Made by a program: the position numbers and the translations under genes
The notes under the pieces: model-generated
What the model was told of the DNA's origin: nothing
Databases searched by the model: none
The model's input: the letters and a program-made list of their open reading frames with translations, nothing else
Shown here: piece after piece, positions 7,642 to 45,521 of the stretch
How positions within the stretch are numbered: position 1 is the stretch's first letter
Layout of the letters: every line of letters starts with the position of its first letter
From: Singulisphaera sp. GP187
GTDB taxonomy: Bacteria > Planctomycetota > Planctomycetia > Gemmatales > Gemmataceae
Length of the DNA: 64,000 nt
Reading direction: 5' to 3'
NCBI GenBank assembly: GCA_945861245.1
Contig: CAMAUE010000006.1
Coordinates: forward strand, 1-64,000

Positions 7642-8462
7642 CTATTGCAGCTTCAGTAGTTCGCGCAAACGAGCGATTTCAGCCGCCTGGTCTGCCGCGA
7701 CCTTGAGAGCGGCTGTTTTTTCGGTGTCCGCGCGTTGGCGTTCGTACTCGGCGATTGCGCGGTTCTGTTCCGCCTTGTGTCTTAGGCGTGCCAAATCCAG
7801 ATGCGACGTGAACGGCGTGCCATCGGGATGATAGATCGTCCACCCGTTCGCATCGATCTCGAAGCGGATGCCCAACGCGGGACTTACCCAGCCGTTCATG
7901 TTCGAGATCTTTTCGAGCCGATCGCCAGGGCGAATCCAGCCTTGCAGGTCATTCGTTTCGGGATCGAAGAGATAGTATTCATGACGCGACCGACAAAAGT
8001 CACTTTACGAGCCGGAAGCGTAAGCGACGGACTGGAGAAATCCGTCGCTTACGCTTCCGGCTCGTACTCTTGTCGGTCGCGTCATTCATCGACCCCGTGT
8101 TTCTCGAAAAAGATAAACTTCCGCTCCATCTCCGCCGCCGTGTTGTTTGGCGAAAGAATCTCGAATGTCACCTTCGGCGCGATGCTCGCTTCCTCCCATT
8201 GCTTGTAGGAGCCGCGATAGCCCTTGGGCCGGCCGAACACCGCCATGGTATCGGGTGCGGCGCACGTTTTTTTCTCGCCCTTCATCGGATACCAAAGCAG
8301 ATCGCCGGCGATGAACACGTCGGGATCATCAGCGAACTGCGTTTCGAGGTTCTCTTTGATGAGCACAATCCAATGACACTGCAGCGTGTTGTCGGACCTG
8401 GGATTCCCATTGCAGTCGGGATATTCGATTGCCGCATCGTCTTGTTGAAGTAGTGTGTTCAT
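7642..8462 (-). pseudogene. Uma2-family (DUF820) endonuclease-like gene interrupted by a palindromic element
   Basis: The first part (8462-8089) encodes a Uma2-type protein with KVTFEILSPNNT, the usual core motif, and runs to ...FFEKHGVDE. The reading frame then meets a stop inside a 103-bp palindrome. On the far side, the sequence resumes exactly where the family expects it (EYYLFDPETNDLQGWIRPGD) and continues to a coiled-coil-like tail (7642-7899). Removing the element plus one copy of the flanking 4 bp restores one open frame of about 237 codons. The gene is therefore a clean insertion-inactivated Uma2 gene. Uma2 proteins have a PD-(D/E)xK nuclease fold and are very numerous in planctomycetes. 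Their role is unsettled. Confidence 0.88.
7982..8084. mobile_element. 103-bp MITE-like palindromic element with TTCA target duplication
   Basis: The terminal inverted repeats are TGACGCGACCGACAA at the left end and, at the right end, TTGTCGGTCGCGTCA with one mismatched base. An inner pair GAGCCGGAAGCGTAAGCGAC / GTCGCTTACGCTTCCGGCTC makes nearly the whole element fold back. The bases TTCA occur directly outside both ends (7978-7981 and 8085-8088). A duplication like this is the signature of cut-and-paste insertion. There is no coding capacity, so it needs a transposase in trans. A related inner palindrome is at 32692-32750. Confidence 0.88.
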
Positions 8463-8485: not shown

Positions 8486-9211
8486 CTATTTCACATCGAG
8501 CCGAAAATCGACGTCGCCGAGTTCATCCTCGATTCGGCGGAGGCGGAATTTTTTGCCGAACACGGGCGAGACCTGCCATTCGCCGACGCGTTTGGCGGGC
8601 ACGTAGTCGTCATCGCCGTGCACGAGAATCTGAAATTCGATCTCGCCGCCGCGAGCATCGATCAACCAATATTCGCGAATGCCTGCTTGGTGGTAGCGTT
8701 CGCGGAGTTTCACTTTGTTTTTAATAACGGAGCTTGGGCTGACGATCTCAAGCGCCCAATCGGGTGTGCCTTCGAATTCGACCGTGTCGTCGCCATGTGG
8801 GCTTGGAATCCGTTTGAGTTCGCCATTTTTCAAGGTATCCCAGGACGCGAAAAAGGCGTCGGGTTCATTGGATATCTGGGCCAGCTTGTGCACGATGCGT
8901 GTGCGATCGAAAAAAATTCGGCCCTTCTTTTTCTTACGCACAAACGATCCGAGAACGGTGTAAATCTCTACCTTGGGGGACGAATGGGAATCGATTCGTT
9001 CGGGGCTCATATTGATGAATATCTCCTTACCGAGATAAGCGATCTTGCCATTCTCGGGGAAATCAGGAGAAGCGGTCCATTTGCGAAACCGAGCCAGCGT
9101 CATCGCGCCGGCGGGCATGAAGAATGCCGTGGAATCGTCGTCGTCGAAATTATCGCAGGCTACGGCGGTCTCGGCGTCCTGGGCGGCGCGGTCTAGTAAG
9201 ATAGCGGTCAT
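8486..9211 (-). CDS. Uma2-family (DUF820) endonuclease-like protein
   Basis: This intact 241-residue protein has the Uma2 core: GTPDWALEIVSPSS, then a conserved lysine, then YHQAGIREYWLIDARGGEIEF. These correspond to the PD-(D/E)xK-like active site and the GIxEYWLID strand. There is no signal peptide. It is 23 bases upstream of the broken Uma2 gene on the same strand, so the two probably formed a tandem pair. The family is predicted to have a restriction-endonuclease-like fold, but no biological target is established. Of three Uma2 genes in this window, this is the only one that is intact. Confidence 0.88.
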   Translation of the reverse strand: MTAILLDRAAQDAETAVACDNFDDDDSTAFFMPAGAMTLARFRKWTASPDFPENGKIAYLGKEIFINMSPERIDSHSSPKVEIYTVLGSFVRKKKKGRIFFDRTRIVHKLAQISNEPDAFFASWDTLKNGELKRIPSPHGDDTVEFEGTPDWALEIVSPSSVIKNKVKLRERYHQAGIREYWLIDARGGEIEFQILVHGDDDYVPAKRVGEWQVSPVFGKKFRLRRIEDELGDVDFRLDVK

Positions 9212-44751: not shown

Positions 44752-45310
44752 CGCCACTCTCCTTCCGCGGATCCGTCCGTGTTAGAAGCATCCCGCGCTA
44801 GCACATTGGGCTAGCATTAGGAATTTTGATACGTGGTATACTCAAGGTCCATCCGCGTGCCACGGTTTCTTGGATTCCCTACGCAAGGCGTGCCATGGGA
44901 CGGTGATGAACATAATTCTCGTTGCAAAATTCATACCGTGCAAGAAATTGGCAGGGTAGATACCGTAACGTATTGGTATATATGAACCATACGCCGACAA
45001 AAAACGCAAGCCCATCTCTGGTGATAACGCGCCTCCCTGCCAAAAAATGATGTATCCTGTCAGTCTGGCGGGGCTGGTAGAACCTATCCGAGTCCTCATA
45101 GTTTGCATGAATAGAGTAGATAGTGCCAATTACCCTGGTGGGCGAGCGGCATTGCACGGGACATTATTCGCGTATCTGTTTTGTCGATTTTCCCCAAAGT
45201 GTGACGAAAGGCGCCGAAGATTGTCGAAAAGTGAGGAATTTTCGTCATTTTCGACTTATGCAATAGCAGAAGGACACCAGGCCAATTACGCAACCGACAG
45301 AAAAATAAAA

Positions 45311-45350
45311 TCCTCGTTCCCACGCAGGAGCTTCGGAACGAGGGCGTTTT
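45311..45350 (+). terminator. Possible terminator hairpin
   Basis: CCTCGTTCC and GGAACGAGG pair around a 15-base loop, followed by GCGTTTTGGCTTTT. The T-runs are weak and no gene lies directly upstream. Confidence 0.35.
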
Positions 45351-45521
45351 GGCTTTTGTTGGTTGCGTCGAGTAATGAGTAAAACAGAAAAATAAAAAAG
45401 AATGGCTCGTTTGGGGCGAAAGGGAAGTTTGGTTTTTCGCGATACATTGATGAGAGTTTTGACTTTTTCCTAACGCCTTCATGACGGAGAGCTAAAGTGC
45501 CGATGTAATAATCGGATTTGC

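Follow-up and report, generated by a model that had tools for sequence, protein, structure and literature searches.

A recently mobile palindromic MITE in a planctomycete Uma2 gene and its probable IS1182-like mobiliser

A Uma2 gene in the window, the whole 64,000-nucleotide stretch of DNA analysed here, is split by a short palindrome, which raises the question of whether the palindrome arrived by transposition and, if so, which kind of enzyme moved it. An earlier note, made from the letters alone, had proposed a 103-bp insertion with TTCA on both sides (7978-8088), and this was confirmed exactly: the element is a near-perfect palindrome at 7982-8084, flanked by TTCA copies inside the gene. 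The other structural points of that note also held. The 15-bp terminal inverted repeats (TIRs; TGACGCGACCGACAA) are exact, and nearly full internal pairing is borne out both by the two inverted 22-mer arms, GAGCCGGAAGCGTAAGCGACGG (Table 1; 0 in 100 shuffles), and by the single-strand DNA fold of −55.2 kcal/mol (z = −15.3). The element has no gene of its own, being overlapped by chance ORFs only, and an Rfam scan of the window gave nothing at gathering cut-offs. Elsewhere in the window, a degenerate relative at 45286-45370 (TTACGCAACCGACAG...GTTGGTTGCGTCG) has a different interior and no exact target site duplication (TSD).

Table 1. Positions in the window of the element, its parts and the two pieces of the Uma2 gene.
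Feature	Position	Strand	Basis or remark
Downstream part of interrupted Uma2	7642..7981	-	severed by insertion; separate match to joined protein
Target site duplication copy 1, TTCA	7978..7981		single copy in G063 empty site
Left terminal inverted repeat TGACGCGACCGACAA	7982..7996	+	same as IS1182-like IS ends
Core hairpin arm GAGCCGGAAGCGTAAGCGACGG, class-wide repeat	8009..8030	+	310 own-genome matches, reversed-pattern control 0
Hairpin loop ACTGGAGAAAT	8031..8041		sequence and fold
Core hairpin arm, inverted copy of GAGCCGGAAGCGTAAGCGACGG	8042..8063	-	repeat search
Right terminal inverted repeat TGACGCGACCGACAA	8070..8084	-	exact 15-bp match
Upstream part of interrupted Uma2, 126 aa	8082..8462	-	stop TGA (8082-8084) is the element end
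Target site duplication copy 2, TTCA	8085..8088		sequence

The broken gene and its intact sister allele

The upstream half of the gene terminates ...KHGVDE, and the stop is immediate because the element end reads TGA. When the element and one TTCA were deleted in silico, the frame ...HGVDE-YYLFDPE was restored as predicted from the first reading; the joined protein scored 48.8 bits against the Pfam Uma2 model (PF05685) versus 31.9 for the upstream half alone, and the two gene halves matched it separately, at residues 1-127 and 125-237. The earlier note had pointed to an intact allele without the element as the telling comparison, and one is present in a sister species of the same genus (genome G063, C67:13258-13914, 96% amino acid identity). 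There the flanks (∼93% nucleotide identity) enclose a single TTCA/TGAA, that is, an empty site. The insertion of a MITE in an uncultured planctomycete can thus be viewed cleanly before and after the event, the sister genome serving as the empty-site control. A second Uma2 gene, intact and coding for 241 aa, lies directly upstream of the broken one (8486-9211, minus strand).

Copies, target duplications and empty sites

The search for further copies was made in the host genome (G000, a 6.04-Mb draft in 289 contigs), which proved to hold at least 40 (40 scored among 231 candidate places). Alignment of the best 30 loci gave sharply defined ends and 4-bp duplications of varied sequence (TTCA, AGAA, AACA, AACT, ACAG, TGAT, TCTC, CAAT and others). 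For TSD statistics we used 68 elements with distinct flanks, taken from G000 and G063 and, in a few cases, from other relatives. In 34 of these the exact direct repeat extended over at most 4 bp and in 3 over 5 bp, and an exact TSD was absent in 31; in mismatched pairs of left and right flanks, used as a control, a 4-bp repeat occurred at 0.9%, and other lengths showed no peak. At least three of the four flank positions were identical in 45 of the 68 elements (control 7.7%).

Eighteen further element sites were traced into G063, where 10 were occupied, 4 empty, 3 filled by a different hairpin and 1 unresolved. Three of the four empty sites carry exactly one copy of the TSD (AGAA, TTCA, TCTC), which with the window site brings the orthologous empty sites with one TSD copy to four. 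From the 4-bp TSDs and the empty sites it follows that the MITE was moved by a staggered-cutting, DDE-type transposase; the preference in the first reading for such an enzyme over the IS200 mechanism is upheld by these data and by a DDE insertion sequence (IS) with matching TIRs, described below.

With up to one mismatch allowed, the TIR had 86 matches in G000 and 111 in G063; the 93 other genomes of the family that were searched had 0 to 3 apiece. The TIR family is thus almost restricted to these sister species, consistent with its recent amplification there. We conclude that the window element is a real and recently mobile MITE. Being short, non-coding and multicopy, with TIRs, a TSD and a full-length IS that shares its ends, it belongs to an already known kind of element.

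An IS1182-like insertion sequence as the likely mobiliser

Because the MITE ends match IS ends, we consider it very probable that the 103-bp MITE was mobilised in trans by an IS1182-like DDE transposase. IS1182-like copies of 1.9 kb that share the MITE ends (TGACGCNNCCGACAAAA) are present in relatives of the host, and two are flanked by 4-bp duplications. The full copy in G062, of the same genus, is about 1.9 kb long, encodes a 582-aa DDE transposase and has TIRs AGACGTCCCCGACAAAAGG and TGACGCTCCCGACAAAAGT with TCAA duplicated on both sides; the second copy with a duplication lies in G294, between two copies of GGAA. The G062 transposase matched PF13751 and PF01609 above gathering cut-offs, and its best NCBIfam model was NF033551 (IS1182), at 149.9 bits versus a cut-off of 270. 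Since this cut-off was missed, we call the transposase IS1182-like and not a member of the family. A search of the class found the transposase at 19 places in 13 genomes. TIR-like sites (up to 3 mismatches) occurred at 2.35 per kb at transposase ends versus 0.066 elsewhere; the former count takes in the remnant locus of the host, at which one of the sites is part of a MITE.

Full-length IS copies with MITE ends were found in G062, G088 and other relatives; the host has only a 5′ remnant, which was reached from a TIR without a partner at G000:C227 and comprises the 5′ portion of a transposase gene. The TIR of this remnant is identical to the MITE TIRs over 19 bp, and the remnant shares 58% amino acid identity with the G062 transposase over the matched part. 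A Pfam scan of the 110-aa remnant alone gave no match, which was resolved through the full-length G062 copy. At the remnant locus (L101, 1635-1653 and 1551-2006) the frame of the remnant, ...GWTNDDATD, continues directly into a MITE end, since GATGACGCGACCGAC matches the TIR; the junction is possibly a recombination joint. The sole copy found in a transposase scan of the named genomes matches that of G062, and a transposase fragment at a contig end in G063 has a more diverged TIR. An intact copy of the IS1182-like transposase was not found in the MITE-rich G000 and G063 drafts, and for that reason we infer the role of the enzyme in this particular copy. The lack of an intact copy in either draft counts against an IS1182-like mobiliser, as do the truncated state of the host match, the diverged TIR of the G063 fragment, the sub-cut-off score, the 31 of 68 elements without an exact TSD, and a similarity limited to the ends, the interiors of MITE and IS being unrelated.

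In the course of events that we propose, an IS1182-like transposase would bind the TIRs of about 17-19 bp in trans, make staggered cuts 4 bp apart in the target and join the element, and gap repair would then leave the 4-bp duplication, here at TTCA within Uma2. The inner hairpin would be a passenger from a pool of hairpin repeats spread across the class and not part of the transposition machinery.

Another DDE IS that shares the TGAC...CCGACAAAA ends could instead have been the mobiliser, with the IS1182-like match only an ancestral relative. Both the missing intact copy in the two drafts and the dissimilar MITE interiors would suit such an IS, but we think it unlikely, given that the host remnant carries the very TIR of the MITEs and that the TIR consensus accompanies the transposase in several genera and families. 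A much less probable account is the replacement of a pre-existing hairpin without duplication, as in IS1272 of the IS1182 family, which targets stem-loops and leaves no TSD (PMC4923244, PMC5678879). It might explain why, at three traced TIR-element sites, the hairpin of the sister species is another one; however, two of these three have TSDs (L003 AACA, L027 CCCT), the window element did not land in a hairpin and has a TSD, and inverted flanks are not in excess among the TSD-less elements (mean 3.84 of 10 versus 3.32 in the control).

The very strong hairpin could also suggest a palindromic element of the REP/IS200-IS605 (RAYT) type, moved as a single strand by an HUH tyrosine transposase without target duplication, and REP dimers inside larger palindromes are known from other bacteria, namely Anabaena variabilis and Halothiobacillus neapolitanus (PMC3733652). 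Yet the 4-bp TSDs are clear and the empty sites have one copy, the TIRs match a DDE-type IS, and the half-core has no REP-like stem of its own (−2.6 kcal/mol, z = −0.2), so that we regard this origin as highly improbable. Membership in the IS200/IS605 or REP/RAYT groups was rejected on the 4-bp TSDs. Mobilisation by the IS1182-like enzyme remains the reading that we prefer.

A modular hairpin core and its relation to known systems

The half-hairpin has a distribution far wider than that of the TIR: it was found in 71 of 298 genomes of the class and 42 of 155 genera, mostly without these TIRs. Many of the core copies in G000 likewise lack an intact TIR pair, a few having degenerate ends. When 26 such G000 hairpins were traced into G063, 23 were at the same place, 1 was altered and 2 sites had another hairpin. 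The copies without a TIR pair are therefore mostly old and inherited, and for the same reason no mobile boundary of the core could be defined. A different dispersed repeat, within GGGTCGCGTCGTGCCCGTCGCTGGCGCTCAGGCTCCGACCGG, has many copies in G063 (L229-L232 and others).

Conversely, one TIR set encloses at least five interiors besides the main core (at least six in all). Core A is present in 38 elements, and core B, which is related to it and has GAGGCTGAAGCG arms, in 19; further cores come from L107 and G061, L135 encloses a GTTCCCAAACTCC hairpin, and the interiors in G026 and G088 fold less strongly. Core A is also carried by a second TIR family, TAGTGCTYTGTCA, which has another core once (palindromic members at L198 557-687, L209 1790-1920 and L247 2754-2863, that at L247 with a different core). 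At L023/L238 the two species have TIR elements between matching flanks, and the cores of these elements differ. The element is a chimera of TIRs almost restricted to two sister species and a class-wide hairpin core. Because one TIR set has many interiors, core A recurs in a second TIR family and L023/L238 differ, cores have likely been exchanged, although convergent insertion at L023/L238 is conceivable. Different hairpins were also seen at the orthologous sites L060/L227, L189/L203, L013/L243, L027/L246 and L003/L252.

More tentatively, these elements could form a hairpin-shuffling system, in which IS1182-derived ends serve as a chassis and cores are swapped time and again with a planctomycete-wide pool, either through recombination among elements or through the capture of hairpins already in place. 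The palindromic element of the first reading stands; the class-wide status of its core and the transposase family lay beyond that reading. Separable mobile ends and hairpin core would provide one route for the spread of high-copy palindromic repeats; how CGTC repeats spread was left open in earlier work, which reported no dedicated transposase for them (PMC3733652). A full-text literature search for the core sequence gave no report relevant by title, and no published TSD length for the IS1182 family was found in the literature searched.

Bacterial MITEs such as Chunjie, Nezha, NEMIS/Correia and MITEAba12 are likewise short, non-coding, multicopy and TIR/TSD-bearing, with related full-length ISs and occasional gene disruption. 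What sets the present element apart from those MITEs is its interior, a long and nearly perfect hairpin that it has in common with a class-wide repeat, and the occurrence of several unrelated interiors within one TIR set. The partner transposase resembles the IS1182 family in its DDE domains (PF13751, PF01609) and best NCBIfam model, and differs in its score (150 versus 270 bits); IS1272 replaces stem-loops without duplication, whereas the elements here have direct 4-bp duplications. The GTAG/CGTC REP repeats (Di Nocera et al. 2013) are also high-copy short palindromes, are also present in planctomycetes and are sometimes nested within larger palindromes. Membership among them was rejected because the 22-mer folds no better than shuffles; CGTC occurs in its reverse complement with no adjoining stem. 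In contrast to those repeats, the half-core here lacks a stem-loop and GTAG tag of its own, and the palindrome arises solely between two inverted 22-mers.
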